Assembly (NCBI GenBank): GCA_025363655.1
Contig: JANYDK010000147.1
Span: forward strand, 1-64,000
DNA length: 64,000 bases
Source: Deltaproteobacteria bacterium
Lineage (GTDB): Bacteria; Myxococcota_A; Polyangia; Polyangiales; JADJMO01
Reading direction: 5' to 3'
Shown: positions 40,101 through 56,916 of the stretch, one piece after another
Position numbering within the stretch: position 1 is the first letter of the stretch
Layout of the letters: the number at the start of each line of letters is the position of its first letter
Notes under the pieces: generated by a model
Told to the model about the DNA's origin: nothing
Seen by the model: only the letters and a program-made list of their open reading frames with translations
Databases searched by the model: none
Made by a program: the position numbers and the translations under genes

Positions 40101-40111
<11 letters not shown>

Positions 40112-42473
40112 CGAGCGTCTCCGGCGTCGGCGCGCTCATGAGCGCAAGCGTCATCACCAAGCCTCCCCCCGCAGGCCCCCCGGCCGCCGTGATTCTACCG
40201 CCGTGTTGCTCGACGATCCGCTGCACGATGGACAACGCTAGCCCGGTTACGCGTCCGCGGAGGACGAAGAACGGATCGAAGAGCCGGGCCAGCTCCGCCT
40301 CGGTGAGCGCGGGGCCTCGATCTTCGATCGTGATCGTGGCCGTGCCGAGAGACTCCGACACACGCACGCCGACCACGGACGACGCAGGAGAACGGGCGAT
40401 CGCGTGCTCGATGAGCGTCTGCAATGCCACCGCCAGTCGACCGCGATCGACACTCACGCGGGCGGGCGGCGACGATCGATCGTGCAACAATGCAATGTCG
40501 CTCTTTTCGAGCCGATCCGCGCTGCGGGCCAGGACCTCGTCGAGGATCGCGTCGAGTCCATGGACGCTTCGCGTGAGACGCGGAGGCTTCCCATAGGCGA
40601 CGAGGTCGTTCATCAGGTGGGTGAGACGCGTCAGCTCTCCGCGGAGGATGCGCAGGTGCGCCGCGTAGTCCGACGATTGTCCGAGTCGTGCTTCGACGGC
40701 GTCGAGCGTGGCGCCGATTCCAAAGACTGGATTGCGCACGTCATGGACGATGCCGCCGACGATGCGACCGAGCTCGGCGAGCACGCCAGCGCGCTGTTGG
40801 TCTTCCTCGACCTTGCCGGCGATGTCGATCTCGCGGGCCATGACGACGACGCCTCTTTGTCGAGCGTTGGCAGGCGCGAGCACCGCTGCCGTGACCATCC
40901 ACGTACGACCGCGCGCCGCGTCGGGCACGTTCGTCGAACGACCACGCCCCGTTCGCAGCGCGTCCTCGACGAGCGCGTCGGTGCTCGACCATGGCTCTCC
41001 CGCCCCGAGCTCGCGGAGGGTCTTGCCGAGCGTGAGGCTCATCGGTTGCCCCAACATCGAGACGGCAGCCGCGTTGCCTGCTTCGATTTTTCCGGAGGGC
41101 GAGAGGAGGATCACCGGTAGCTCGAGGGCATCGAAGATCTGACGCCAGGCGATCTCGGCCTCCCGCGCCGCCGACTCGGGCGGCTCGCTCTTCTTCGACC
41201 GACGATCTATCGAGCCCACTGGACGCCAGAAGGTCACGTACGTCACCTCCGAGCCGTCGTCGGAAGGAACCGGAGTCACCGAGATTTCGAGCTCGCGCGC
41301 CTTGCCGGTGGCGTCGTAGAAGAAGAGCTCGGCGCGCGAGGTGCGTCTGGCGGCGAGGTCGTGCGAGACGCGCACGAGCTCCTCCCGATCGGTGGCCGGT
41401 CCATGGAGGATGTTCGGATGGCGACCGAGGATCGCCGCCGGCTCGAAGCCGAGCAGCCGCTTGAAGGCGGGGTTCGCGTACTCGAAACGAACACTCTCTC
41501 CACGACGGATGGTCACCGTCGCTGCGTCGTCCATGTGACGGAGCGCCGTCGCGAGCACCTCGAAGCCTCGCTCGACCCGTCGTCGCTCGAGGATCGCACC
41601 GACCTGCGCTGCGCACACGGCGGCGAGATCGAGCATGCGGCGATCTTCCGGACGGTTCGACGTGGAGAAGAACTCGAGGAGCGCGACCACGGCTCCCTCG
41701 GCGACGATCGGCACGCAGAAGGAGACGATCAGCCCCAGCTCGCGCGCGATTTTCACCCGGGGAAAACCCCGCGCCTCCGCCTCGGTGGCATCGAGCCACC
41801 ACGCCTTCTTGGTCAGCCAGACGCGGCCCACCATCCCCTCGCCAGGTGCGTATTTCAGCGTCCTCGAGAACTCGCGGAAGGGCTCGAAGCGGGCGTCGCG
41901 GGAAAACCACGCCGAGGTCGGCTCGACGTGCAGCCCGTCCGTCGTCGTCGTCCACGCCTGGCCGATCTCCCAGCCGGTGCGCTCGACGAGCGTCCGCAGC
42001 ATGAGGAACAGCGCGCCGTCGAAGTCTTTGGCGTCGGCGATGGCGAAGGCGAAGGTCTTCAGGACCTCCACCTCTTGGTTTCGTCGCTCCGCCACCAACT
42101 CGGCCTCGCGCCGCTCGGTGACGTCGCGCCGGTAGATGAGCAAGTGTTGGTCGTCGATGCGCGTCGCGTGGACCTCCATCCACCGCGTCGAGCCGTTCCG
42201 ATGCCGAAATCGAAAGACGCGCACGCCCGCCTCGCCCGACCAGGCGGCGTCGGCGAGCGACCACGCCGAATCGAAGTCGTCCGGATGGAGGAGCATGCGC
42301 CCGATCTGTCCGACCACCTCGTCGGGACGAAAGCCGAGCGAGGCCGCGATGGCCTCACTCTCGTAGACGACGATGCCGTCACGGCGAAGGACGCCGAACA
42401 TCGCGTGCTTGCCGAGGAGGGCAATCGAGGGGACCTGCTCCCAGGTGCTGCGCGCGGCGGCGTCCGACGACAT
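40101..42473 (-). CDS. multi-PAS/GAF soluble histidine kinase, ATP-binding motifs degenerate
   Basis: A 790-residue cytoplasmic sensor: PAS (about 15-125), GAF (about 140-300), PAS (about 305-425), PAS (about 445-555), then HisKA with phospho-His in GGIVHDVRNPVFGI and a HATPase-like domain. The N-box reads TLIEHA where the magnesium-binding Asn is expected, and the G1 box reads DRGPAL rather than DxGxG. It may be a weak kinase, a phosphatase or rely on another kinase. ATG 42473 was chosen; upstream frame is shadow. Cognate partner of the sigma54 regulator it overlaps by 11 bp. No membrane helix. Confidence 0.88.
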
Positions 42474-42586
42474 CGGAGCCCAAGCTAACAAGACCTGAGC
42501 GTTCTCTGTAGTCCACGACTCGGACAAGGCTGTCCACCAGCGGGACGACCGACGACGGGATGGCTTGTTTTCAGCCAAATCATCGT

Positions 42587-42602
42587 TGGTACATCGGTTG
42601 CT
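42587..42602 (+). promoter_or_regulatory. sigma54-type -24/-12 promoter for the chemosensory operon
   Basis: TGGTACATCGGTTGCT: GG and GC exactly 10 nt apart, near-consensus TGGYAC and TTGCT. The -12 C at 42601 predicts +1 at about 42613. ATG 42604 would then lie upstream of the transcript, so ATG 42616, three nt into the mRNA, is the more likely start. An inverted repeat TGGCT-N7-AGCCA (42561-42577) lies just upstream. Confidence 0.6.
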
Positions 42603-42615
42603 GATGGCACCGACC

Positions 42616-43113
42616 ATGAACGGCCTCCTCTCGCCTTTCGCCTCTCCTCTGCACGACGGGTCCTACCTTCACGCCATCGAGTGCGTCGCTCACGGCGCGC
42701 GCGTGGCCCTCGCCGCCGACGCGATCGAGCGCATCGTCGAGTACGAGGTCTCCCCCTTGCCGCTGGCCGGCCCGTGGGTCGCCGGATTCGCGGCCCACGA
42801 TGCCTTCGTCATCGTCTCGGTGCGTCTCCAGTCGGGGACACGAACGAACGCGCGCAGGCAAGTGAAGGCCGCGCTGCTCACGACGAACACCACTGAATTT
42901 CAAGGCTCGAGTCGACGGACGCGTTGGGCGGTCGAGGTCGACGAAGTGCTCACGCTCGTCCGCGTGAAGCCGAGCCAGCTCGACCCTCGCAGCGAACCGG
43001 AGGGCGACGCGCCGCCGTGGCTCGGACCGGCGATCACCACCGACGGCCGCGCGGTGCAGTGGCTCGACGTCGCCTACATGCTCCGCACGTTCGGAGCTGG
43101 GGCCGGGGCTTGA
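42616..43113 (+). CDS. CheW-like protein (first gene of chemosensory operon)
   Basis: A 165-residue divergent CheW-fold protein: AHGARVALAADAIERIVEYEVSPLPLAG matches the start of CheW domains and it ends with a strand pattern seen in that fold. Likely an adaptor between receptor and CheA-type kinase. Start chosen from the -24/-12 element ending 13 nt upstream; ATG 42604 is the alternative. Two bp separate it from the next gene. Confidence 0.75.
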   Translation: MNGLLSPFASPLHDGSYLHAIECVAHGARVALAADAIERIVEYEVSPLPLAGPWVAGFAAHDAFVIVSVRLQSGTRTNARRQVKAALLTTNTTEFQGSSRRTRWAVEVDEVLTLVRVKPSQLDPRSEPEGDAPPWLGPAITTDGRAVQWLDVAYMLRTFGAGAGA

Positions 43114-43115
43114 CG

Positions 43116-44021
43116 ATGCGGCCCGTGATCATGCATCCGCGGTTCGGCGGGGCACGTGCGCAGCAAGTGCGAGCTGCGTGCGCGCGGATCGGTGCGAGCA
43201 TCTCGACCGCCGAGCGCCAAGCGCGCAACCTCGGGACCGCGCCCCTCCTCGTCGCCGCGCTGCCCGCCGGAAGCCGCGTCGTCCCCGCCGAGGCGTTCGA
43301 GCTCGCCGCGGTCGCCGACGAGGACGCCACGTTGCTCCTCTTCGCCGACGAACCGCTGGTGCTTCCGGTCGTCACCTTGCAACGCGGGCGCGTCGTCGTC
43401 GTCTCGCCCAACGCCTCGCCTGCACGTCTTGCCGGCGTCCTCTCCATGCTCCTCGGCGTCGTTCGGCCGGCCAATGACACCAGCCGGGAGCGGCTCGGAA
43501 CGCGCGCGTGGAGCATCGAGGGCGGCGCGACGGTGACCCTTGCACGCAAGGGTCCGGTGAGCGCGCTCGTCCCCTTCGAAGACGGCCAGGCGCCCTCCGC
43601 CGACCTCGTCGAACGAACGCGCAGCGCGCTCGCGCTCGCCAACCCGGCGCGCATCCGTGAGCTGATCGGCGCCTCCGCCGGCGTCGTCCACCTCTCGCGT
43701 TCGCCGCGCGAGTGGATCATCTACTGGCCGCGCACCGATCGACGAATCTGGATCCACTCGCCGGTGCGGTTGCCGCACGTCGTCGAGCTCGGCTCGGTCG
43801 CCTCGCGCACCGACGATCGCATCGTCCGCATGCCGGCTCGAAGCGGCGACGTCGCGCTCGCCGTCGGGAGCGATCTCGATCGCGGACCGCAACACCTGCA
43901 ACATCTCCGGCAACTCCAGGGCGTCGAGCAACTGATGAACGAAGGCGGGCCGACCACCTTCGAGCGCTTTCGCGGAACGACGTCGCTGCCGATGAACGCG
44001 CTCGTCGCGGAGGTGCGCTGA
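43116..44021 (+). CDS. chemosensory-operon protein, unknown
   Basis: A 301-residue cytoplasmic protein with no domain I recognise. It begins MRPVIMHPRFGG; residues 1-120 read like an alternating alpha/beta domain (ARIGASISTAERQARN, then three hydrophobic strands), possibly a degenerate receiver lacking acidic-pocket residues. The second half has WIIYWPRTDRRIWIHSPVRL. Position between a CheW-like protein and a REC-DUF4388 regulator, with a 1-bp overlap downstream, makes it a signalling component. Confidence 0.7.
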   Translation: MRPVIMHPRFGGARAQQVRAACARIGASISTAERQARNLGTAPLLVAALPAGSRVVPAEAFELAAVADEDATLLLFADEPLVLPVVTLQRGRVVVVSPNASPARLAGVLSMLLGVVRPANDTSRERLGTRAWSIEGGATVTLARKGPVSALVPFEDGQAPSADLVERTRSALALANPARIRELIGASAGVVHLSRSPREWIIYWPRTDRRIWIHSPVRLPHVVELGSVASRTDDRIVRMPARSGDVALAVGSDLDRGPQHLQHLRQLQGVEQLMNEGGPTTFERFRGTTSLPMNALVAEVR

Positions 44022-45799
44022 TGTCTCCTCGCGTCCTCGTCGTCGACGACAGCCCCACCATTCGCAAGCTCGTCGAGCTGGCGTTTCGTCCGACCGGCTT
44101 CGAGCTGGAGTACGCCGCTACCGGCCAGGACGGCGTGCGCCGCGCGCGTGAACAGGCGCCCGACGTCATCCTCCTCGACTTCGTCCTCCCCGACATGCGC
44201 GGCATCGACGTCTGCGCCCAGCTCGCGCAGATCGAGTCGACGCGGAAGACGCCGATCGTCGTCATGAGCGCGAAGGAAGAGCTGCGGACGCTGTTCGCTC
44301 CCTATGCCGCGGTCGCCGACATCCTCCCGAAGCCGTTCTCCTCGGAGCAGCTCGTCGCCAGCGTCCGCAAGATCGTCGACGTCGACGCGACGCAATCGCG
44401 CTTCAGCCAAGCGCAGAAAGAAGCCGCCGCGGCGGTCCTCTATGCGTGCCTGAAGAAGCCCTTCGCCTTCATCCCCTCGTGGTGCGCCCAAATGGGCGCG
44501 AGCCCGGCTGCGCCTTTTTTCGCGCGCAAAATGCTCACCGCCGAGGTCGTCGGTCAGCTCCTCGAAGCCCTCGCGCCGACGTTCCGCGAGGCGCTCCGCG
44601 AGCCGACGTCCAATGCGAGCGCGAAGGCCGAGACTCCGCGCGCGCCTTCGGTCGAGAATCGTGGTCGCCGCCCCGCGCTCGCCGGTGAGCTCGAAGGATG
44701 GCCAGTGTCCGACGTCTTGACGATGGTCGGCGCCTCCGGCCGAACCGGCGTGCTCCGGCTCTCCGGTGGGCTCTCGGGAGGGGTCTCGAGTGGAACGGCG
44801 AGCGTCGACACGCTCGTCTACTTCCGCAGCGGCGAGATCGTCCTCGTCACCTCCACGCGTCACGATCCATCGGGCAAGCCGGAGGTCATCCTCGAGGCCG
44901 AGCGCGGCGTCTCGTCGAATGGTGGAGCTCGCGACCTCGTGCAGGCGCTCCATGAGGCCGGCCGCAAGCAGCTCCTCGACGTCCTCGATCAAGGCTCGCA
45001 TCGCACCTCGCATCCCACCTCGCAGCGCTTCGGCTTCGAGGAGCTCGCCGCCCTCCCCGACTACGTCGAGGCCTACGGGCGACACATGTCGATGGGTCGC
45101 AAGACGCTGCTTTTTCCGGCTCCGTCCGATCGCGAGGCGACGCCGGCGCAATCGCTCTCTGGCCTCGGTCTCGATCACGTACGTCATCGAGTCGAGGGCG
45201 CGCGCGAGCTCTGGCCCGACGCTTCGGTGGTGTTCGATCGCGTCGCCGGCTTCAGCACCAAGGTGAAGGGCATCGCCTTCGACGCCGACGAGCGCCGAGT
45301 CCTCGCCCTCGTCGATGGTCGCTGGTCGCTCCAAGGCATCGCCACCCGCGCGGCGGTCAGCCTCGAGGTCGCCCGTCGCGTCGCCTGGTGCCTCGCCGAA
45401 ATCGGCCTGGTCGCGCCGGTGTCGTCGAAGAGCGACGCGCGCCCGGTCCTCATCGTCGAGCCCGACGTCGAAGGTTTCCAGCGTCAGCTCGAGTCGATGC
45501 TGGCGAAGCGTCCCGATCCGGTGCCGCTGGTCAGCGTCGCCTCGGTGGTCGACGTCGCCGAAGTGGCGCGGCGGGCTCGCCCGAGCCTCGTCATCGTCAA
45601 CGCCGGCGGCGAAGGCGGCGTCGCCACCAAGGCGGCGCGGGCCTTGCGAGACGACGTCGCGCTCGAAGGCGTGTCGCTCGTCGCCATCCTCGATCTGACC
45701 GCCGGAAACCGACGCGCCGAGCTCACCGCCGCCGGCTTCGACGCCGTGCTCGTCAAGCCCGTCGACTACGCCGATCTCGAACGCCTCATCCGCCACTGA
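44021..45799 (+). CDS. REC-DUF4388 (PATAN) response regulator with second REC-like domain
   Basis: A 592-residue regulator. An N-terminal receiver (1-120; DDS at the acidic pocket, Asp in VILLDFVLPDM, Lys in LPKPFS) is followed by a helical linker, a DUF4388/PATAN-type domain (about 220-330, around LEGWPVSDVLTMVGASGRTGVLRL), a middle region with a winged-helix-like segment, and a C-terminal receiver-like domain ending LVKPVDYADLERLI whose acceptor Asp is not obvious. In cyanobacteria PATAN-CheY proteins bind the type IV pilus motor. GGAGG lies seven nt before ATG 44021. Confidence 0.85.
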   Translation: MSPRVLVVDDSPTIRKLVELAFRPTGFELEYAATGQDGVRRAREQAPDVILLDFVLPDMRGIDVCAQLAQIESTRKTPIVVMSAKEELRTLFAPYAAVADILPKPFSSEQLVASVRKIVDVDATQSRFSQAQKEAAAAVLYACLKKPFAFIPSWCAQMGASPAAPFFARKMLTAEVVGQLLEALAPTFREALREPTSNASAKAETPRAPSVENRGRRPALAGELEGWPVSDVLTMVGASGRTGVLRLSGGLSGGVSSGTASVDTLVYFRSGEIVLVTSTRHDPSGKPEVILEAERGVSSNGGARDLVQALHEAGRKQLLDVLDQGSHRTSHPTSQRFGFEELAALPDYVEAYGRHMSMGRKTLLFPAPSDREATPAQSLSGLGLDHVRHRVEGARELWPDASVVFDRVAGFSTKVKGIAFDADERRVLALVDGRWSLQGIATRAAVSLEVARRVAWCLAEIGLVAPVSSKSDARPVLIVEPDVEGFQRQLESMLAKRPDPVPLVSVASVVDVAEVARRARPSLVIVNAGGEGGVATKAARALRDDVALEGVSLVAILDLTAGNRRAELTAAGFDAVLVKPVDYADLERLIRH

Positions 45800-45870
45800 C
45801 ATCGACGAATGCGCCGGGCGGGCCGCAATTTTCAGTCGTTTTCTCATCACAACCCATCAAGGAGACAGCC

Positions 45871-46233
45871 ATGGAGACCATTCTCGTCATCGATGACGTG
45901 CAGACCGATCGTGAGCTCGTGGGCAAGGTCGTGACCAGCGCCGGACATCAGGCGGTCTACGCATCGGACGGCGCGGAGGCGCTTGCAAAGGCGAAGTCGA
46001 TCAAGCCGGCGATGATCTTCCTCGACGTGGTGATGCCGATTCAAGACGGCTTCAAGACCACGCGGGCGCTGAAGAACGATCCGGAGACGGCGAAGATCCC
46101 GGTCGTCCTCGTGACGAGCAAGGGGACCGAGAGCGATCGCTTCTGGGGCAAGCGTCAGGGCGCCGACGACCACGTCGCCAAGCCCTTCAGCCCCGACACG
46201 CTCCTCCAAATCATCCGCCGCTACGCCCGCTAG
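45871..46233 (+). CDS. CheY/PilH-like single-domain response regulator
   Basis: A 120-residue receiver: acidic pair in VIDD, acceptor Asp in MIFLDVVMPIQDG, Thr/Ser in LVTSKGT and Lys in AKPFSPD. The SDRFWGKRQGADDHVAKPF segment is typical of PilH/PilG-type regulators of type IV pili. GGAG precedes ATG 45871 by six nt. Seven bp separate it from cheW. Confidence 0.93.
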   Translation: METILVIDDVQTDRELVGKVVTSAGHQAVYASDGAEALAKAKSIKPAMIFLDVVMPIQDGFKTTRALKNDPETAKIPVVLVTSKGTESDRFWGKRQGADDHVAKPFSPDTLLQIIRRYAR

Positions 46234-46240
46234 GAGGAAC

Positions 46241-46783
46241 ATGTCGAGCCAATCCCACGGCAACGGAGAGTCGTCTGGCCGCGAGAGCCACCAGATGAGG
46301 GCTCGTGATCCGGAGAAGGCGAACCAGACGTCGAGCTCGCACGGCGGCGTCTGCACGTTCTTCCTCGGCGAAAAGCAGTACGGCCTCGACGTCTCGCTCG
46401 TCGGCGAGGTGGTCAGCATCACCGACGTCGCGCCCATCCCGATGTCACCCACCTCCGTCCGCGGGATCTTCAGCCTCCGCGGAACGCCGGTGGCGCTCCT
46501 CGATTTCGGCGACGTGCTCGCCCTCGAGGGCGGACGCATCCGCGAGGCCAAGACGGCCTTGGTGGTGCGTCGCGACGACCTCCTCGTCGGCTTCGTGATC
46601 GATCGGATGGAGGCGGTCGTGCCCGATGGGCGCGGCGTCTTCACCGACGCCAGCGCCGAAGATCACGCTGCCGTGCGCGGCTTCCTCGAGCTCGACGACG
46701 CGCGCGGCGTCGTCACCGTCATCGACCCGCGAACCCTCCTCGAACGCATCGAGGCCACGCGATTCCTCAAGACCGAAGATTGA
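46241..46783 (+). CDS. cheW: CheW adaptor
   Basis: A 180-residue canonical Che[21 protein letters not shown], the conserved [16 protein letters not shown] and the final strand block around [14 protein letters not shown] 35-residue hydrophilic N-terminal extension precedes the domain. GGAGG is four nt before ATG 46241. It should couple the MCP and CheA encoded downstream. Confidence 0.95.
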
Positions 46784-46797
46784 AAGAGAGACTCACC

Positions 46798-48621
46798 ATG
46801 AACAAAATTATGCAATTCCTGCGAGATCTTCGCGTCGGCCAGCGCATCAGCACTGGCTTCGCGTTGATCACGATCCTCATGATCGTATCGGCCGCGGTCG
46901 GCTACATGACGCTCAACACCATCTCGACCGAAGTGCAGCACGCGCTCACCTCGAACGCTCCGATGAGCGAGCACGCCTCGCGCGCCCGCATCGACGCCTC
47001 CGACTTGCGCCGCTTCGAGAAGGACATCTTCCTCAACATGAAGGACGCGACGAAGCTCGCCGAGTACGAGGTGAAGTGGAGCACGCAACGCGACGACCTC
47101 TCGAAGGACCTCGACACCCTCACCGCCGGCGCCGACAGCGCCAGCGAGAAGCGCACCATCGGCTCGATGCGCACCGAGCTCGCCGCCTACGTCGAGGGCA
47201 TGCAAGGCATCCTCGCCAAGATTCACTCCGGCGAAATCAACGACGAAATCGCCGCCAACGTCGCGATCGGCCCCTACAAGGACCGCATCCACGAGCTCGA
47301 GACCGCGGCCGACGAGCTGGTCGGCGAACAGCACGGGATCATGGCGAACATCGACGAGGACGTCGAAGCCAAGGCGCGTCGCGCCCGCTCGCTGACGCTC
47401 GTCATCGGCGTCCTCGCCTTCGCCTTCGCGGTCATGATCAGCATCTACCTCACGCGTAGCATCACCGGCCCGCTCGCCGACACGGTGAAGCAGGCGCAGG
47501 AAATCGCCGCCGGTCGCGCGCAGATCACCGCCAAGGAAGAGCTCGCCCAGGTGCGCCAGGCCTTCGACGGCGTCCGCGGCGCTCTGCAGGAGACCCGTGA
47601 AATCAAGGACAAGGTCGAGAAGGACAACAAGGAGCTGCAGGAGAACATCATCGACCTCCTCAGCACCGTCGCCGATGCCTCCGACGGCGATCTCACGGTC
47701 CGCGCGAAGATCACCGCCGGCTCGCTCGGCAACGTGGCCGACGCGTTCAATACCCTCCTCGAGCAGCACCGGGACGTGTTCGCCCTCGTGCGTAGCCAGA
47801 TCGATCGCACGAACCTGGCGGTCGCCGAAATCCGCGAAGCCGCAGGCGAGGTGGCGAACGGCGCCGCGACCCAGGCCAAGGAAGTCATCTCGGCGACGGC
47901 CCTGGTCGAGATCTTGAGCAAGGAGATCGGCCGCGTCAGCAACAACGCCGGTCAGGCCGCCGATGCTGCCAAGCGCACCGAAGAGAGCGCGAAGGAAGGC
48001 ACCAAGGCCGTCCAAGAGGTCATCACCGGCATGGGCACCCTCCGCGCGAACGTGCAAGCGGGCGCCAAGAAGATGAAGAACCTCGGCGATCGCTCGATGG
48101 AAATCACCGGCATCGTCGGCACCATCAGCCGCATCAGCGAGCAGACCAACATGCTCGCGCTCAACGCCGCGATCGAAGCGGCGCGCGCCGGCGAACACGG
48201 CCGCGGCTTCTCGGTCGTCGCCGAAGAGGTGCGCAAGCTCGCCGAGCGTACCGCGACGGCGACCCAGGAAATCGACCGCTTGGTGAAGACGATCCACCTC
48301 GAGACGAACGAGACGGTCGACGCCATCGAGCAGCAGACCCAGGTCGTGGAGCAGGAGTCGATCGTCGTCGGACGCGCCGGCGAGTCGCTGCAGAGAATTC
48401 GTCAGGTGTCGACCGACGCCGCGACGATCGTCATCGACATCTCCGCGATCGCGAAGAAGCAGGCCGAAGGCACCGGCGTCGTGGTGCGCGCGATGGAGTC
48501 GATCTCCCAGATCGCCAAGGCCACCGCGGCCGGCGTCCAGGGAACGACCGCCAACGTGCTCCAGCTCTCGGCGCTCTCCGACGAGCTGAAGAACAGCGTC
48601 TCGCGATTCAAAGTCGCCTGA
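46798..48621 (+). CDS. methyl-accepting chemotaxis protein (PilJ/Frz-like)
   Basis: A 607-residue transmembrane receptor: TM1 (17-38), a ~160-residue helical sensor of the four-helix-bundle type, TM2 (198-218), HAMP (about 219-270), a HAMP-like second linker, and the signalling hairpin [15 protein letters not shown] near residue 450, followed by RKLAERT. It clusters with CheW, CheY and the hybrid CheA. No CheR or CheB is encoded in the window, so adaptation by methylation is not supported locally. Confidence 0.96.
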
Positions 48622-48664
48622 ACAATCGCACTGCCCGAACGAACGGATGGGACGGAGGAAGCAC

Positions 48665-51600
48665 ATGGCGAGCTTTTCGATCGACGACGTACGCGAAACG
48701 ATGACGGCCGACGTTACGGCCTTCCTGACTCGAATCGAGGAAGCATCGATTCGCCTCTCGGACGCGACCACTCCGCACCCATCCGGGCAGCCCGCCCCTT
48801 CGTTCCGGGCCATCGAGGACGCTGGACATGCCATCTACGGCACGTCCTCGCTGGTCGGTGCCGACTCGCTCGCCGTCAGCGCGAAGCTGATCGAAGAGCT
48901 GGCCGTCTGCGGTCAAGAGGCCCTCGAGCTCGCCGCACACCACGCCGAACGGGCCCGCCGCATCGCCAGCCTCGCGCTCTCGGGCGCAGCCGAGATGCGC
49001 GGAATGCTCGACCTCGAGCTCGATCGTCGTGGTGACGACGCGCAGTGGCTGGCGATCGACTGGCAAGGTCGAGCGCAAGCGGTCCTCACCGAGCCGACGC
49101 TCGTCACGCCCCCCCGCAACGCGACTACGCCGGCTGTGCCGAAGCCGGTGACGAGCATGCCGCCCGGTGACCTCGAGATCCTCGGGGCCGTCGGCGAAGA
49201 AGACAACGACCTGCGCCACGCGACCGACGTCGCCGAAGAAGCGGCGCCCGATTTCGTCTTCACCGACGACGCTGTCCCGGTCGCTACTTCTCCGATGATG
49301 GCCTTCGACGACGAGCTGCAGGCCGTCTTCCAACAGGAAGCGCGCGAGTGCATCGTCTCGCTCCAAGGTCACCTCGAAGCGCTCTTCGGCGATCCGACCG
49401 ATCTGGTGCCCGCGCGGCACCTCGAGCGCCTCTATCACACGCTGAAGGGCGCGGCCGCGACGGTCGGCCTCGAGTCGGTCAGCGCCTTCGCGCATCAGCT
49501 GCAGAGCCGGATGCAAGACGTCGTCGAACGCGGCGCCCGCGTCACCCCCGAGCTCCTCGAGCTCGTCGTCGCCGACACCACGCTCCTCCTCGAGTCCGCA
49601 GGGCTCAAGGGTGCCTCGTTCTCGCCGAAGCGAGACGAAAAGGCGCAGTCGCGTGGACCGGCCGACCTCCGCGCCGGCTTCCGCGAGGAAGTGCGCATCG
49701 CCTACGAAGAGAGCTCGGCGTGGATCGCGCAGATGAGCGACGACGACGGTTCCTTCACCGACGTCCGCGCCAACCTCGAGACGCTCTTCCATCGTCTCAA
49801 GGGCTCGGCGTTGGTGGTCGACGCGCGTGAGCTCTCCGCCGAAGCAGCGCGCCTGCAGGCCGAGTGCGCCACCGGCAAGCCTTCCCGGGCCGAGCTCGCC
49901 CGAGGCCTCGCGCGCATCGCCGCGCTGGCCGGCGTCCCCGGCGTCCCCGCCGTCCCTGCCGAGCATGCACCCGTCATCGAAGCCGACGACGACGCCCGCG
50001 CCACGTTCGCCCTCGAAGCACGTCGCATCTGCGACGAGGCCGAAGAGATCGCACGCTCCCTCGAACAGTCGGCGCAGTCCGGCGGGCTCGACACCCTCGA
50101 GACGCTGGGTCGACTCTTCCACCGACTCCGCGGCTCGGCGCTGCTCATCGGCGAGACGGCGATCGGCGAGATCGCGACGCGTCTGCAGGCCGGTTGCGAT
50201 GGCGAGAGCATGGCCTCGATGGGCCCAATCCACGAAGGATTGCAGTCGATCCGCGACACCCTCGGCGGCGGCTCGGGCCCCGTCGCCGGCTCCGAGACGC
50301 TCGAACGTCACACCCTCGACGCGCCCGATCCGGAGCTGTGGCAGGCGTTCACGCAAGAGTGCGCCGAGCTCCTCGAGGCCATCGACAAGACGGTCCTCTC
50401 GCTCGAAGAGTCACGCGCTCCCGAGGCCGAGCTGAAGAAGCTCCTCTCGCCGCTGCACACGCTGAAGGGCGTGGTCAACACGATGGGCCTGACGCCGACG
50501 GGGAAGCTCCTCCATCGCGTCGAAGACTTCATCGACAGTCTGGCCGCCGCGAAGATGCTCCCTCCCGTCCGTTCGATCGCGTCGTTCCTCCTCGACGTGC
50601 AGGCGGAGGTGCGGCGCAACCTGCGGCAGGCGAAGAAAGGCTTCGTCGAGGTCGCGCTCGCCAAGCTCGAGGCGCGCGCTGCTCGAGTGCTCCGTAGCAC
50701 GTCCGCCAAGACCTCGGCGTCTCGCGAGTCGCGCGAATCCGAGTCGCGGCAGTCGCAGGGTGAGAGCGAGTCGCGAGGTGACGAGAGCGCCTCGAAGGCG
50801 ACCCCCGAGCGAGCCTTCGTCCGCGTCGCCACCGCGCGCCTCGATGGCCTGATGAACCTCGCCGGCGAAGCGGTCGTCAGTCGCTCGCGCATCCTCTCCC
50901 GGGTCGAAGCCCTCCGCGCGCTTCAACTGGAGCTCGGACGCGGCAGCCGTCGCCTCGTCGAGACGGTCGAAAAATTCGTCGAGGAGCACGAGTTCGCGCG
51001 CATGGACGCCGGCGCTGGGACGCGCGCAGGCTCTCTCGCGCTCGCCGCCGGCGCCGAATGGATGTCCGAGCCCGTCGCCTCGGGTTCGACACGAAGCACC
51101 GCGAAACATGGCGCGAACGGTGACGCACAGGACGACTCGGCGTGGAGCGCGTTCGGCGAGCTGGAGCTCGATCGATACCAAGACATCCATATCCTCTCGC
51201 GCAGCCTCGCCGAGCTGACCAACGACTTCGGCGAGATGTACGGGCAGCTCGCGCAAGGCCTCGGCGCGCTCACCGACGACTCCGACGCCTTCGGCGGCAT
51301 CGTCAGCGGCATCCAGTCCGAGGTGACGCGGGCGCGCATGGTCCCGCTCGAGGTCCTCTACTCGCGCCTCCGCCTCCCGATCCGCGACGCCGCGCACCGC
51401 GAAGAGAAAGAGGTCCGCGTCGTCACCGAAGGCGAGGAAGTCAACCTCGACAAGACGATCGCGGACGGCCTCTTCCAACCGATGCTCCACCTCGTGCGCA
51501 ACGCCGTCGCCCACGGGCTCGAAGACGCGGCGGGTCGTGCACGCGCTGGAAAACAAGGCACCGGCGTGATCACCCTCTCGGCGCGCCAAGAGCTCGGGCA

Positions 51601-52849
51601 GATCATCCTCGAGGTGCGCGACGACGGCGGCGGCCTCGATCTGGTGAAGCTCCGCGATCAAGGCGTGGCGCTCGGGCTCATCCCCGAAGGCACCGACCTC
51701 GACGACCCGCGGGTGCCCGAGCTCGTCTTCGCAGCTGGGCTCTCGACGCTGACCACCGCGCGCGCAGTCGCCGGACGCGGCGTCGGATGCGACGTGGTCC
51801 GACGCGCAGTCGAGCGTCTCAACGGCAGCGCGCACGTGGAGACCACGCCTGGACGCGGCACTCGCTTCGTCCTCACGTTGCCGCTCACCCTCGCCATCAC
51901 CAAGGCCCTCCTCGTCGAGGACGCGGGCCAACAGTTCGCGATTCCCCTCTACTTCGCCGAGCGCATCCTCGACGCGCACGGGCTGGAAATCGTCGAGTCC
52001 GCGGGGGTTCGTCGAGTCCGACTCGACGGGGTCTGGTCGCCGATGCAACGCCTCGGCGCGCTCCTCGGTCGCCACGATGCCGCTGCCACCGGTCCGGTCG
52101 TCGTCCTCCGCATCGGCACCGAGCGCACGCTCCTCCAAGTGGACGCCGTCCGCGGCCAGGAGGAGATCGTCGTCAAGACCCTCGGCTCGGTGCTCCACGG
52201 TCATCCTCTCTTCGCCGGCGTCACCGCGCGCGGCACGGGGCAGATGGTGCTCATTCTCGACGTGCCGGGCCTCATGGAGTCACGAACCTCGCGCTTGCAA
52301 CCGATGCGCAAAGCGAGCCCTGCGGCGCCGATGCACGGGAAGATGGAAAAGAACGAGAAGTTCGACAAGAACGAGAAGAACGACAAGAACGACGACGCCC
52401 CGGCGAGCGAGCCGCGGCGGCGCAAGGAGAAGGTCGAGGAGCGATCGCTCGCCAGCGAGCAGCGCAAGCTCCGCGTCATGTTCGTCGACGACTCACTCTC
52501 GGTGCGCAAGGTCGCCGAGCGCGCGCTCGGGGCGATGGGCGTCGAGGTCACCACCGCGGTCGACGGGCTCGATGCGCTCGCGAAGATGCGCGAGGCCAGC
52601 TTCGACCTCCTCTTCACCGACCTGGAGATGCCGCGCATGCACGGATTCGAGCTCATTCGTGAGCTCCGCTTCATCAAAGCGCACCAAGATCTCCCGATCG
52701 TCGTCGTCACCAGTCGCTCGGGTCAGAAGCATCAGGAACAGGCGCGCATCCTCGGCGCCAACGAGTACCTGACCAAGCCCTTCACCCAGCAGACGCTCGC
52801 CGCCGCTCTCGAGAAGTGGGGCCGTGTCCGTGAGGAGAGTGCCAAGTGA
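48665..52849 (+). CDS. hybrid CheA kinase with five HPt-like domains and a receiver (ChpA-like)
   Basis: A 1394-residue hub kinase. HPt-type sites are His55 (HAIYGTSS, divergent), His258 (HTLKGAA), His376 (HRLKGSA), His486 (HRLRGSA) and His598 (HTLKGVV). A Ser/Glu/Arg linker precedes the dimerisation helix pair (around LMNLAGEAVVSRSRIL), an intact HATPase with N-box HLVRNAVAHGLED and DDGGG, a CheW-like P5 domain, a Lys/Asn-rich linker and a receiver (MFVDD, LLFTDLEMP, TKPF). The layout matches ChpA/PilL of type IV pilus systems more than flagellar CheA. ATG 48665 has GGAGG six nt upstream. GTGA overlap joins the next gene. Confidence 0.95.
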   Translation: MASFSIDDVRETMTADVTAFLTRIEEASIRLSDATTPHPSGQPAPSFRAIEDAGHAIYGTSSLVGADSLAVSAKLIEELAVCGQEALELAAHHAERARRIASLALSGAAEMRGMLDLELDRRGDDAQWLAIDWQGRAQAVLTEPTLVTPPRNATTPAVPKPVTSMPPGDLEILGAVGEEDNDLRHATDVAEEAAPDFVFTDDAVPVATSPMMAFDDELQAVFQQEARECIVSLQGHLEALFGDPTDLVPARHLERLYHTLKGAAATVGLESVSAFAHQLQSRMQDVVERGARVTPELLELVVADTTLLLESAGLKGASFSPKRDEKAQSRGPADLRAGFREEVRIAYEESSAWIAQMSDDDGSFTDVRANLETLFHRLKGSALVVDARELSAEAARLQAECATGKPSRAELARGLARIAALAGVPGVPAVPAEHAPVIEADDDARATFALEARRICDEAEEIARSLEQSAQSGGLDTLETLGRLFHRLRGSALLIGETAIGEIATRLQAGCDGESMASMGPIHEGLQSIRDTLGGGSGPVAGSETLERHTLDAPDPELWQAFTQECAELLEAIDKTVLSLEESRAPEAELKKLLSPLHTLKGVVNTMGLTPTGKLLHRVEDFIDSLAAAKMLPPVRSIASFLLDVQAEVRRNLRQAKKGFVEVALAKLEARAARVLRSTSAKTSASRESRESESRQSQGESESRGDESASKATPERAFVRVATARLDGLMNLAGEAVVSRSRILSRVEALRALQLELGRGSRRLVETVEKFVEEHEFARMDAGAGTRAGSLALAAGAEWMSEPVASGSTRSTAKHGANGDAQDDSAWSAFGELELDRYQDIHILSRSLAELTNDFGEMYGQLAQGLGALTDDSDAFGGIVSGIQSEVTRARMVPLEVLYSRLRLPIRDAAHREEKEVRVVTEGEEVNLDKTIADGLFQPMLHLVRNAVAHGLEDAAGRARAGKQGTGVITLSARQELGQIILEVRDDGGGLDLVKLRDQGVALGLIPEGTDLDDPRVPELVFAAGLSTLTTARAVAGRGVGCDVVRRAVERLNGSAHVETTPGRGTRFVLTLPLTLAITKALLVEDAGQQFAIPLYFAERILDAHGLEIVESAGVRRVRLDGVWSPMQRLGALLGRHDAAATGPVVVLRIGTERTLLQVDAVRGQEEIVVKTLGSVLHGHPLFAGVTARGTGQMVLILDVPGLMESRTSRLQPMRKASPAAPMHGKMEKNEKFDKNEKNDKNDDAPASEPRRRKEKVEERSLASEQRKLRVMFVDDSLSVRKVAERALGAMGVEVTTAVDGLDALAKMREASFDLLFTDLEMPRMHGFELIRELRFIKAHQDLPIVVVTSRSGQKHQEQARILGANEYLTKPFTQQTLAAALEKWGRVREESAK

Positions 52850-53349
52850 GCGCCGCCGCTGCCTCCGTCACCGATCCCACGAGTGAGCTCGCCGTCGCCT
52901 GTCGTCTGCACCAACTGGTAGTCGCCATTCCGGCGCGATGGGTCAGTCGCCTCGTGCTCCCTCACGAGGTCCGGAATCTTCGCGAGCCCGTTGACGAGCC
53001 CGCCGGATTGCCTGCCGTCGTCGAGTGCGCCGGCGTCGCGCACGCAGCGTGGGATCTCGGCCTCCTCCTCGGAGAGCCCGAGGTCTCGGGAGCCTGGTTT
53101 CTCATGCGGATTCCTCATCGCGGAAAGATCCTCGCCCTCGCGCTCCGCACCGGTGAGTGCCTCGCGGTCGCCGCCACCCCGAAGGCCTTCGAGCTTCCGC
53201 CGCGGGCTTTCGAGCGAAGGCCTTTGGCGATTGGGCGCGCCTTCACCGGCCAGCTCGCGCGGGGCGGTGGCCTCATCCTCGACGTCTCCCATCTGTGGAC
53301 GGAAGCCGAGCTCGACGCCTCGGTGCGCGCGCTGAAGGTGGCGCCGTGA
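52846..53349 (+). CDS. CheW-like protein (third copy)
   Basis: A 167-residue divergent CheW-fold protein: LAVACRLHQLVVAIPARWVSRLV at the start and LARGGGLILDVSHLWTEAEL at the end match the first and last strands of CheW domains. Start is GTG 52846 within the end of the CheA gene, with GGAG about nine nt upstream; its stop overlaps the next start (GTGA). Probably an alternative adaptor. Confidence 0.75.
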   Translation: MSAAAASVTDPTSELAVACRLHQLVVAIPARWVSRLVLPHEVRNLREPVDEPAGLPAVVECAGVAHAAWDLGLLLGEPEVSGAWFLMRIPHRGKILALALRTGECLAVAATPKAFELPPRAFERRPLAIGRAFTGQLARGGGLILDVSHLWTEAELDASVRALKVAP

Positions 53350-54929
53350 ACGCGCCCGTCCCGCCGCAAGCGACGAGGCCGCGCGGCGACGGCACCCCGG
53401 TGGCGCTGATCGTCGACGGCGACGCGACGTCACGACGCTTCGTCGAGCTCGCCCTCGAGCGCAGCGGCACCTTCGTGGTCGAGTCGGCGAAGGACGCAGC
53501 GAGCGCGCTCGAGATCCTCCGCTCCGCCCGGGTCGACCTCATCATCTCGGACACCGATCTCGTCGACACCGGCGGGCTCGCCTTCTTCCGTCGTCTCTCC
53601 CACGAGAGCCGCCTCCGCAGCGTTCCCTTCGTATTTCTCAGCGCCGATCGCGCCGTCGAGACCAAGGTCGCCGCCCTCCGCGCCGGGGTCGACGAGTACC
53701 TGACCAAGCCGTGCGACGTCGCCGAGCTCATCGCACGCATGGAGTCGCTCGTCAGCAAACAGCAACGCGTGCGCGAGGCCTTGCGTCAGCGCTCGTACGC
53801 GCTCGCCGGTGATTTCGCGGCGATGGCCTTTCCCGAGTTCGTCGGCATCGTCGAGATGGGTCGTCGAAGCGGCGTCCTCTCGGTCGTCACCACCACCGGC
53901 GTCGGCAACGTCCACTTCGACGCCGGCGCGATCGTCCACGTCGCCTTCGGCAACCTCTGCGGCGAGACCGCGTTCCAAGAAATCTTCGCCGCCCCCGCCG
54001 GTCACTTCGAGTTCACCCCCGGCCCCTGCAGCGTTCGTCCGGAAGATCACACCATCCACGCTTCGGTCACCGCGCTGATCATGGAAGCCGCGCGGGTGAT
54101 GGACGACTCGGCGCGCATCAGCGTGAACCCGCCACCGCGCGCGGTCGTCAGCCCGAGGCGGCTCGCGACCAGGCCTCCCTTCGCGGAGAATGAGCGTGTT
54201 CCGGCGCTCGACGCCGAACCGCTCTTGGCGGCGCAATACGAGCTCGCGCTCCGTGATCCCTTCGCGCTCGCCGAGATGCGCGTCTGGAGTCACGCCGACC
54301 TCGGACGATGGACGAGGCGCGAGGTCGGCCGCGATCGACTCCACGTGGTGCTCGTCGCCGGATTGAGCGAAGGCGTCTCCGCCATGCTCGCGCTCGCCGG
54401 CGCGCCGTCAGAGCGTTGGGTGGTCGACAGCCTCAGCCCCGATCAGAAAATCTTCGGTCTCACGTTCTATCTCCGGCACGAGCGCACCGTCGACGTCGTC
54501 CTCGTCGACGCTGCCGATCCGGCGGCGACCCTCCGCGCGCTGCAACGAACGCCTGCGATCGTCCTCGTCGCGCCGCCCGATGGCGACCTCCTCTCGCTCG
54601 GCACGGCTGCGCGCGTCGGGCTCGAAGATCTCCTCGAGAGCCTTTCGTCGCCGGCGGTCGTCGCGGTCGGCAACGCCTCGCTCGCGCAAGGAATGAACGC
54701 GATGCGCAGGGTCGTCGATCGCCCAGGCGAGACGATGGTCCGCTGCACCGTCGGTGCGCTCGGCGAAGGCGCGGACGATCTCCGCGGCCTCCTGGTGAAG
54801 GGCATTCGTCTCTGGGCCTCGAACGCGCCGCCGAGCACCGTCCCACCTCCCACGCGCGACAAGGCAATTCGCCCGAGCGCGTCGATTCCTCTCGCCCCGA
54901 GGCGTCCGCGCAACGAAGGACGGTTTTGA
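53346..54929 (+). CDS. REC-DUF4388 regulator with C-terminal GTPase-fold-like region
   Basis: A 527-residue regulator: receiver (about 18-135; Asp in LIISDTDLVDTGG, Lys in YLTKPCD), DUF4388/PATAN-type domain (about 155-250, around GIVEMGRRSGVLSVV), then a region (about 340-480) whose strand pattern (LHVVLVAGL, VDVVLVDAAD, AIVLVAPPDG) resembles the small-GTPase-like domain often fused to DUF4388 but has no P-loop GxxxxGKS. Start GTG 53346. It parallels 44021-45799, so the operon has two PATAN outputs. Confidence 0.8.
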   Translation: MNAPVPPQATRPRGDGTPVALIVDGDATSRRFVELALERSGTFVVESAKDAASALEILRSARVDLIISDTDLVDTGGLAFFRRLSHESRLRSVPFVFLSADRAVETKVAALRAGVDEYLTKPCDVAELIARMESLVSKQQRVREALRQRSYALAGDFAAMAFPEFVGIVEMGRRSGVLSVVTTTGVGNVHFDAGAIVHVAFGNLCGETAFQEIFAAPAGHFEFTPGPCSVRPEDHTIHASVTALIMEAARVMDDSARISVNPPPRAVVSPRRLATRPPFAENERVPALDAEPLLAAQYELALRDPFALAEMRVWSHADLGRWTRREVGRDRLHVVLVAGLSEGVSAMLALAGAPSERWVVDSLSPDQKIFGLTFYLRHERTVDVVLVDAADPAATLRALQRTPAIVLVAPPDGDLLSLGTAARVGLEDLLESLSSPAVVAVGNASLAQGMNAMRRVVDRPGETMVRCTVGALGEGADDLRGLLVKGIRLWASNAPPSTVPPPTRDKAIRPSASIPLAPRRPRNEGRF

Positions 54930-55831
54930 TGGTCCGGATCGATCCGCGTCTACCGTTCACGATGTTCGCGCCGATGCGACGCACCGGCCCGACGCCGCCG
55001 CCGCCCCGTCGCCCGAACATCAGCGGGCTCCTCGCCCCGGGGACGATCCTCGACAAGTATAGGATCGAGGAGTTGGTCGGCACCGGAGGCTTCGGTGCCG
55101 TCTACCGGGCGACGCATCTGCTCTTGCAGACGACGGTGGCGATCAAGCACCTGCGCGCCGACGTGCTCGCCCGCGATCCACGCGTCGTCGCCCAACTCCT
55201 CGACGAAGCGCGATGGGCGGCGCGCGTGCAACACCCGAACGTGGTGCGCGTCTTCGACGTCACGCAGTCACCGAGCCTGACGTACGTGGTGATGGAGTAC
55301 CTCGAAGGCAAGAGTCTCGCGGCGCTGATCGACGAGCACGGCTCTCTCGAGTGGACCCAAGTGGTACGCGTCGGCATCGACGTCGCCGAAGGTCTCGCGG
55401 CTGGCCTCGCCTCGGGCGTCGTCCATCGCGACATCAAGCCCGCCAACATCGTCCTCGGACGCGACGGCTCCGCGCGCATCGTCGACCTCGGGCTCGCGCG
55501 CGCCGGCGACGGACCGCGCACGCCCAAGACGAGCCCGAAGGCCGGCGCAGCGAACGAGGCGAGCACCCCGAGGGGTGGCATGATCGGCACGCGAGGTTAC
55601 GCGGCGCCCGAGCAATTGGCCGACGCCGCGGGGGCCGATCATCGCGCCGACATCTATTCGCTGGGCGTCACGCTCGACGAGGCCCTCCGCGGTCGCAAGC
55701 GGACGAACGGCCCTCTCGCCGACACGCCGCTGGGGTCAATCCTCGGGCGCATGCTCTCTCGCGATCCCGACAATCGCCCCTCGTACGAAGTCCTCCTCGC
55801 GGACCTGCGCGCCGCCCTCGAGTCGCGATGA
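54929..55831 (+). CDS. soluble Ser/Thr protein kinase
   Basis: A 300-residue kinase with nothing but a catalytic domain after a 35-residue Pro-rich N-terminus: glycine loop GTGGFG (51-56), Lys73, HRD (166-168) in HRDIKPANIVLG, DLG instead of DFG, APEQ. No membrane helix. ATG 54929 overlaps the upstream stop (TGATG) and has GAAGGA eight nt upstream. Its place inside a chemosensory operon suggests Ser/Thr phosphorylation of a chemosensory component. Confidence 0.92.
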   Translation: MVRIDPRLPFTMFAPMRRTGPTPPPPRRPNISGLLAPGTILDKYRIEELVGTGGFGAVYRATHLLLQTTVAIKHLRADVLARDPRVVAQLLDEARWAARVQHPNVVRVFDVTQSPSLTYVVMEYLEGKSLAALIDEHGSLEWTQVVRVGIDVAEGLAAGLASGVVHRDIKPANIVLGRDGSARIVDLGLARAGDGPRTPKTSPKAGAANEASTPRGGMIGTRGYAAPEQLADAAGADHRADIYSLGVTLDEALRGRKRTNGPLADTPLGSILGRMLSRDPDNRPSYEVLLADLRAALESR

Positions 55832-56517
55832 GCAGCGCCGAGCCGCCGCCATCGGGAATGCGTCGCGACGAGGTGGTCGTCACCAGCATCGCCCGCATCG
55901 CGCACGAAATCCGCAACGCGCTCTTCGGCGTGGCGGCGACCCTCGATGCCTTCGACGAACGCTTCCAAGGCACGGCGAGCCGCGATCCGTACGTGCGCGT
56001 GATCCGCGAAGAGCTCGACCGCGTCTCCTCGCTGATGCGCAGCTTCCTCGCGCTCGGCGATTCGCGGCGCACGATGCCGACGTCGATGTCCGAAGTCCTC
56101 GAAGCCACGCAGAGCAGCTGCCGCGCCGAGGCCGAGGCTGCCGACGTCGCCCTCACGTTCGACATCGAGCCCGGTCTTCCTCCGCTCGGTTTCGATCGCA
56201 AGCTGCTCACGAGAGCGTTCGGCGAGGCGACGCTCGACGCGATCCAAGTCTCCCCCCGCGGCGCCCGGGTACAGGTACGCGTGCATCGCAGCGAAGAGGC
56301 GGAAGGTTCGTTCGCCATCTGCGACGTCACCGACGAAGGTCCTCGCCTCGCCGACGCCGACGACGACGCGATGGCACAACCGTTCTTCACGCGCAGACGC
56401 GGCGGCGGCGCCACGCTCGCAGCCACGAGGCGAATCATCGCCGGCTGCGGAGGCACGGTCGAAGTCGGAAATCGCGTCGGCGGCGGCTGCCTCGTGCGAT
56501 TGCGAATTCCCCTTTAG
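55828..56517 (+). CDS. small histidine-kinase-like protein, degenerate ATPase
   Basis: A 229-residue protein with a HisKA helix (His26 in IARIAHEIRNALFGV) and a HATPase-like fold in which the N-box (FGEATLDAI) lacks Asn, the G1 box reads DEGPRL and the final box is GGGATLAATRRII. It resembles the kinase core at 40101-42473 (both have a FGIG/FGVA-ATLDA segment). It may act as a phosphotransfer or phosphatase protein. ATGA overlap with the kinase gene. Confidence 0.78.
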   Translation: MSSAEPPPSGMRRDEVVVTSIARIAHEIRNALFGVAATLDAFDERFQGTASRDPYVRVIREELDRVSSLMRSFLALGDSRRTMPTSMSEVLEATQSSCRAEAEAADVALTFDIEPGLPPLGFDRKLLTRAFGEATLDAIQVSPRGARVQVRVHRSEEAEGSFAICDVTDEGPRLADADDDAMAQPFFTRRRGGGATLAATRRIIAGCGGTVEVGNRVGGGCLVRLRIPL

Positions 56518-56520
56518 AGT

Positions 56521-56526
56521 TATCAT
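56521..56526 (+). promoter_or_regulatory. -10 box TATCAT, 6 nt before ATG 56533
   Basis: TATCAT, six nucleotides, ATG. The predicted +1 falls on the start codon. No Shine-Dalgarno precedes 56533. The last gene of the operon could thus also be expressed separately. Confidence 0.5.
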
Positions 56527-56532
56527 CCGAAG

Positions 56533-56916
56533 ATGAGTGTCGCGGGTAAAGGGGGCCTCGTCCTCGTCGTCGACGACGAGGATGCGATCCGCACGTGCGC
56601 CGAACGCATCCTCGAGGACGGCGGTTTCCGCGTGGCGTTGGCGGTCGACGGCGACGAAGCGTGGGAGCAATTCCATCGACATCACGTCGACATCACCGCC
56701 GTCATCCTCGACCTCCAGACCCCGGGCCGACCCACCGAAGATCTCGTGCGCGCGATCCTCGATCTGAAACCAAACGTGCGCATCGTCCTCTCGTCGGGCT
56801 TCTTCGACTACGATCTCAAAGACCGCCTCGACCGCGCCGGCGTCGCCGCGTTCCTCGAAAAACCCTGGTCACGCGACGACTTGCTCGAAGCGCTGCAGTC
56901 CCCGCTCATCGGCTGA
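56533..56916 (+). CDS. single-domain response regulator
   Basis: A 127-residue receiver: acidic pocket VVDDED, acceptor Asp in VILDLQTPG, Ser in LSSGFF and Lys in LEKPWS. It lies 15 bp after the histidine-kinase-like gene and is its likely partner. Complete for phosphorylation. Confidence 0.92.
   Translation: MSVAGKGGLVLVVDDEDAIRTCAERILEDGGFRVALAVDGDEAWEQFHRHHVDITAVILDLQTPGRPTEDLVRAILDLKPNVRIVLSSGFFDYDLKDRLDRAGVAAFLEKPWSRDDLLEALQSPLIG

Follow-up and report, generated by a model that had tools for sequence, protein, structure and literature searches.

PATAN response regulators of Synechocystis interact with PilB (PMC10519157, PMC7690835), and in Myxococcus xanthus a set of ten proteins co-occurring with SgmX, a pilus regulator, includes two PATAN proteins (PMC11580455). 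A published survey placed MglA genes near PATAN genes and also cited MglB genes there (PMC4316618). CheA proteins in which multiple Hpt domains are combined with a receiver and P2 is missing belong mostly to the type IV pilus (Tfp) or alternative cellular function (ACF) class of chemosensory system (PMC10782961). Here we describe a chemosensory operon at 42616-56916 of a 64-kb window (the whole stretch of DNA that was analysed), which is the first part of the 204-kb contig JANYDK010000147.1 in a 9.0 Mb genome assigned to the order Polyangiales. A preliminary description of the locus was essentially right in outline but overlooked its strongest novelty, the predicted MglA-like pseudo-GTPase domain of the receiver-PATAN protein RP9 and the coupling of RP9 to a Ser/Thr kinase (STK). 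We give an about even chance to the reading that the operon encodes a Tfp/ACF-type CheA pathway with branched output, in which two PATAN arms, one of them running via the pseudo-GTPase and STK, probably act on type IV pili or polarity.

The locus consists of twelve plus strand genes in a row, separated by gaps of no more than 71 bp or overlapping by 1-4 bp, in the order cheW1, g2, RP3, PilH-like cheY, cheW2, mcp (methyl-accepting chemotaxis protein, MCP), cheA, a divergent gene, RP9, STK, a histidine kinase (HK) and a response regulator (RR). Pfam assigned two CheW, CheY, MCP, CheA, two REC-DUF4388/PATAN proteins, a protein kinase, a HisKA plus HATPase protein and a final REC protein. Gaps were found at cheW1-g2 (2 bp), RP3-cheY (71 bp), cheY-cheW2 (7 bp), cheW2-mcp (14 bp), mcp-cheA (25 bp) and HK-RR (15 bp), and overlaps at g2-RP3 (1 bp), cheA-divergent gene (4 bp), divergent gene-RP9 (4 bp), RP9-STK (1 bp) and STK-HK (4 bp). 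The genes had been described as joined mostly by 1-4 bp overlaps, which applies to only 5 of the 11 junctions, and the gene list given at that time, broadly right by Pfam, had missed the 301-aa g2 between cheW1 and RP3. The cluster was confirmed as genuine and operon-like, and because two other genomes share its gene order chance assembly was ruled out.

Using g2, RP3 and RP9 as queries we searched genomes of the same order, 145 at first and 184 later, as well as 318 genomes of the class; the genome of the window is labelled G000 and its relatives G119, G169, G255 and G513. Besides G000 the full set was present in G119 and G169 only (3/184 genomes of the order). The order from cheW1 to STK was kept in both, with mcp displaced in G119, where contig C9 reads mcp, a porin-like gene, cheW1, g2, RP3, cheY, cheW2, cheA, the divergent gene, RP9 and STK, with nothing HK-RR-like after STK. 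The G169 operon is broken across two contig ends, one holding cheW1, g2, RP3, cheY, cheW2, mcp and the N-terminal part of cheA, and the other the C-terminal part of cheA, the divergent gene, RP9 and STK, inside which the contig stops. The preliminary description had proposed synteny as a check, with its absence counting against the proposal, and gene order proved to be conserved. Ortholog identities spanned 27% (g2) to 66% (cheY), the one-base g2-RP3 overlap was found in all three genomes, and the stop/start overlap of RP9 and STK in four of four (G000, G119, G169 and G255). The operon is a cohesive but rare unit with a core that ends at STK.

The three genomes belong to two families, and the operon identities of G119 and G169, which share a family, are no closer mutually than to G000. 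Such a departure from the family labels would fit horizontal transfer, or else an ancient divergence accompanied by loss, as far as three sequences can indicate. A tblastn search of plasmids with RP9 gave no hit spanning the greater part of its length and therefore no sign of plasmid transfer. A scan of genome contigs with the RP9 pair returned generic receiver matches only. A looser relative at G513:C4 combines a REC-PATAN gene with cheY, mcp and a gene for an Hpt-bearing CheA that ends in a receiver. Divergent from this REC-PATAN/cheA cluster (L208:4402-10235) are two adjoining genes which each encode two tandem protein kinase domains.

The two genes at the centre of the argument are as follows.

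53346..54929, + strand: RP9, with a receiver, PATAN and a predicted C-terminal MglA-like pseudo-GTPase domain (Pfam, AlphaFold, Foldseek)
54929..55831, + strand: STK, a soluble Hanks-type kinase of 300 aa (Pfam Pkinase, E 3.4e-40)

In RP9 the receiver lies at ~53406-53741, PATAN at 53805-54107 and the C-terminal domain at 54228-54842. By eye, the region after PATAN carries small-GTPase-like motifs. An AlphaFold model of residues 295-499 made from four orthologs had a pLDDT of 85.2 and a pTM of 0.86; the full-length model was poor (pLDDT 51), and its Foldseek list consisted mainly of receivers. The best PDB match to the C-terminal model was M. xanthus MglA-GDP (Foldseek E 1.7e-4, probability 1.00); Arf, EngB and Arl came next, along with more MglA entries. 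In place of the G1 motif GxxxxGK[ST] and the G4 motif NKxD, three orthologs read AxxxxG[VA]S and [NQ][AP][ST]L, and because the P-loop Lys and NKxD were absent from every RP9 ortholog we named the domain a predicted pseudo-GTPase. The model thus predicts an MglA small-GTPase fold which has lost its nucleotide-binding motifs. Another alpha/beta fold (Rossmann- or receiver-like), with the Foldseek list reflecting a general alpha/beta likeness, would agree with the modest structural scores (TM-scores 0.42-0.56, rmsd 5-8) and with the negative sequence-profile tests, as the domain gave no matches by sequence to Pfam or the PDB and an hhalign probability of <1% against MglA of this order. We consider this unlikely, given that the order of strands and helices is that of small GTPases, the antiparallel second strand included, and that the top 50 of 350,542 chains were nearly all GTPases with MglA first. 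With TM-scores in this range, the match of RP9 to MglA is therefore one at fold level.

The soluble Ser/Thr kinase of the preliminary description was borne out by its Pfam match and intact Hanks motifs. Alignments showed the Gly loop, VAIK Lys, alpha-C Glu, HRD and APE to be invariant, with DLG in the place of DFG. Its C-lobe is ~22 residues shorter than that of the G119 ortholog, so substrate docking may differ. Among the 318 genomes of the class the only further trace of the operon was a remnant at G255:C42 (L163:4777-6300), composed of the RP9 C-terminal domain, truncated at a tRNA-Lys gene, and then an intact STK joined by an ATGA overlap. The remnant begins exactly at the 3' end of the tRNA-Lys gene, which is how a tRNA site might look after an integration or a deletion.

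This remnant bears on the explanation that STK is merely co-transcribed, with no direct link to CheA and an unrelated target, the RP9 C-terminal domain being a structural extension. At that place the RP9 C-terminus and STK stand without the receiver, PATAN or the remaining operon, and the pair can therefore exist apart. The same remnant retains precisely STK and its adjoining domain, arguing for a link between both, and the RP9-STK overlap is kept in four genomes despite otherwise diverged neighbours. On balance we regard mere co-transcription as quite improbable, and the survival of the overlap in G255 supports the branched pathway. That reading is also supported by the retention of the operon in three genomes of two families and by MglA as the top structural match.

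The chemosensory core comprises the following.

42616..43113, + strand: cheW1, a divergent CheW of 165 aa (Pfam CheW, E 1.1e-9; orthologs ~30% identical in G119 and G169)
45871..46233, + strand: CheY, PilH-like, with a conserved SDxFWxKxQGADD motif (Pfam REC, E 2.7e-22; orthologs 59-66%)
46241..46783, + strand: cheW2 (Pfam CheW, E 3.5e-19; orthologs 35-44%)
46798..48621, + strand: MCP, with two transmembrane segments around a periplasmic domain of the 4HB type, a weak HAMP and an MCP signalling domain (Pfam, hydropathy)
48647..52849, + strand: CheA of 1400 aa, with five Hpt, dimerisation, ATPase and CheW domains and a C-terminal receiver (Pfam, motif scan; orthologs 42-48%)
52846..53349, + strand: divergent protein of 167 aa, CheW-like by position (orthologs 37-39%)

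The Hpt histidines of CheA are residues 61, 264, 382, 492 and 604, of which four stand in canonical HxLKG/HxLRG motifs (motif scan), and Pfam gave no match to a P2 domain. The earlier assignments of a ChpA-like CheA and, from its motif, of a PilH-like CheY agree with these results. The multi-Hpt CheA with a C-terminal receiver and no P2 match is consistent with the Tfp class, and the same features also fit ACF. The two other CheAs of the genome are unlike it (31-33% identity over the kinase core). The CheA ortholog at G119:C9 (L064:11090-16873) is ~1900 aa long with seven canonical Hpt motifs, compared with four canonical (five in total) in the window, and Hpt number therefore varies within the orthologous operon. 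The MCP holds the same position in G169 and lies upstream of the operon in G119. It had been called PilJ-like; the MCP assignment stands, but the Pfam matches were to 4HB_MCP_1 and MCPsignal only, with no PilJ domain. Of the three CheW-like proteins previously proposed Pfam recognised cheW1 and cheW2. The third, at 52846-53349, is suggestive of CheW by position and, by eye, by pattern, but was recognised as such by no method (no Pfam/NCBIfam family, no PDB profile match, hhalign probability of 1.8 against CheW).

The catalytic motifs of CheA and STK, the N-terminal receivers of RP3 and RP9 and the receivers of CheY and CheA are intact. In the branched pathway, MCP would sense a periplasmic signal and control the multi-Hpt CheA through CheW1 and CheW2. 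Phosphoryl groups would pass from CheA to RP3 and RP9, a sink or brake being provided by CheY and the receiver of CheA, and the output would divide into two effector arms, RP3 with g2 and RP9 with STK. Phosphorylation of RP9 may alter partner binding by its PATAN and pseudo-GTPase domains. PATAN might bind polarity factors or the motor of the type IV pilus, and the pseudo-GTPase might bind STK itself or, by mimicry, an MglA partner. STK would add Ser/Thr phosphorylation to the output, and the pathway as a whole would most likely govern polarity, reversal or the assembly of pili. A more specific version, in which CheA-driven receiver phosphorylation makes the nucleotide-free MglA-like domain swap partner and so switch STK or decoy GTPase-activating proteins or effectors of MglA, is put forward tentatively and remains on the doubtful side. 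In the literature searched, in which subscription journals were thinly covered, no STK within a che operon was described, nor was any relay that runs from a chemosensory system to a Hanks kinase by way of a Ras-like scaffold.

The same CheA pathway might drive exopolysaccharide (EPS), development or gene expression as an ACF system instead of pili, with STK acting on transcription or metabolism. The neighbourhood is without motility genes, none of the twelve operon genes encodes CheR or CheB, the ACF class also has multi-Hpt CheA with a receiver (PMC10782961), and the myxobacterial CheA DifE is described as acting on EPS through the receiver protein EpsW (PMC4671073). The PATAN outputs of known function target type IV pilus motors, though, the CheY carries a PilH-like motif, and the PATAN-GTPase context points to polarity (PMC4316618). 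We find ACF output rather unlikely; control of EPS or development is the alternative outcome, and pilus or polarity control the most likely. The pilus link of the operon is plausible by analogy with cyanobacterial PATAN-CheY proteins and from genome context, which includes several PilT-family ATPases and a canonical MglA elsewhere in the genome. Several points nevertheless weigh against the branched pathway. The chief weakness is the negative hhalign comparison of the RP9 domain with MglA, to which the moderate TM-scores are added. No pil genes lie within or beside the operon, and its rarity means that it is dispensable for pili in the order.

A second PATAN-GTPase locus of the same genome (G000:C21:74000-90000, L177) encodes an HK and an MglA-like GTPase that is extended by a long C-terminal stretch. 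Beside them are two PATAN proteins, of which one also carries REC and ends in a roadblock-like part, together with a roadblock-like protein and a coiled-coil protein that resembles a degenerate GTPase; the roadblock assignments were made by eye. This clustering of PATAN genes with MglA-like GTPase and roadblock-like genes also speaks for the branched pathway.

The remaining genes of the operon are listed below.

43116..44021, + strand: g2, 301 aa, no significant family (orthologs 27-34%, same place and overlap in G119 and G169)
44021..45799, + strand: RP3, with a receiver, helical linker, PATAN, winged helix-turn-helix-like segment and C-terminal receiver-like domain (Pfam, alignment, hhalign)
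55828..56517, + strand: small HK, with H-box HEIRN and an N-box without Asn (Pfam HisKA, HATPase_c; sequence)
56533..56916, + strand: RR, a single receiver (Pfam REC, E 1.1e-17)

No significant family match was obtained for g2 by Pfam or profile comparison, and its identification as a receiver or CheW was unsupported by hhalign. In RP3 the receiver lies at ~44033-44365, PATAN at 44681-44986 and the C-terminal receiver-like domain at ~45431-45796. This last domain matched receivers with an hhalign probability of 96.5, and since alignment placed Asn at the phospho-acceptor Asp the fold is taken to be inert. Both RP3 and RP9 would thus end in an inert signalling fold, perhaps a binding platform, behind their active receiver and PATAN. 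The two REC-DUF4388 proteins first reported correspond to RP3 and RP9 (Pfam), and the degenerate HK and response regulator were likewise recovered, as a HisKA/HATPase_c protein lacking the N-box Asn and a REC-only protein. The HK-RR pair is probably a peripheral local addition, because no ortholog follows STK in G119. At the other end, the first ATGs of cheW1 (+) and of a divergent PAS/GAF histidine kinase open reading frame (40101-42617, -) share the CATG at 42615-42618; at least one true start must therefore lie further in, and the start calls need revision.

If the branched pathway is correct, one operon unites a chemotaxis array, a eukaryote-like kinase and a response regulator bearing a nucleotide-dead Ras-like domain, which may represent a new wiring of surface-movement control. 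It would offer a compact testable case of bacterial CheA phosphotransfer coupled to Ser/Thr phosphorylation, and a hint at why PATAN genes recur near MglA/MglB genes.

Compared with known systems, the operon resembles Pil-Chp of Pseudomonas aeruginosa (PilGHIJK-ChpABC) in that its CheA combines multiple Hpt with a C-terminal receiver and lacks P2, that several outputs are receivers and the CheY is PilH-like, that there are two CheWs, and that an MCP is encoded inside the operon. It is Chp-like but not a full Pil-Chp system, because its MCP has no PilJ-domain match and the operon no CheR/CheB (PilK/ChpB); PATAN outputs replace the bare PilG, and g2, the predicted pseudo-GTPase and STK are additional. 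With the Tax/Pix/Pil systems of Synechocystis (PixG, PilG, TaxP2, PixE) it shares a chemosensory cluster, a PATAN-bearing response regulator and a second CheY-like regulator (there PixH, PilH), but here the receiver is N-terminal with PATAN after it, a single operon holds two PATAN outputs with an extra C-terminal pseudo-receiver (RP3) or predicted pseudo-GTPase (RP9), and STK is present. As in Frz and other che operons of M. xanthus, the CheA pathway feeds at least two receiver outputs and belongs to a bacterium with MglA, and Frz also has two CheW-like proteins, one divergent (FrzA/FrzB); the multi-Hpt CheA, PATAN outputs and STK set the present operon apart. Finally, RP9 is linked to MglA-family GTPases and to PATAN/MglB neighbourhoods by its predicted fold and by the association of PATAN with MglA/MglB genes (PMC4316618), and differs from that family in that its domain is fused to a receiver-PATAN protein and is without the G1 and G4 motifs.

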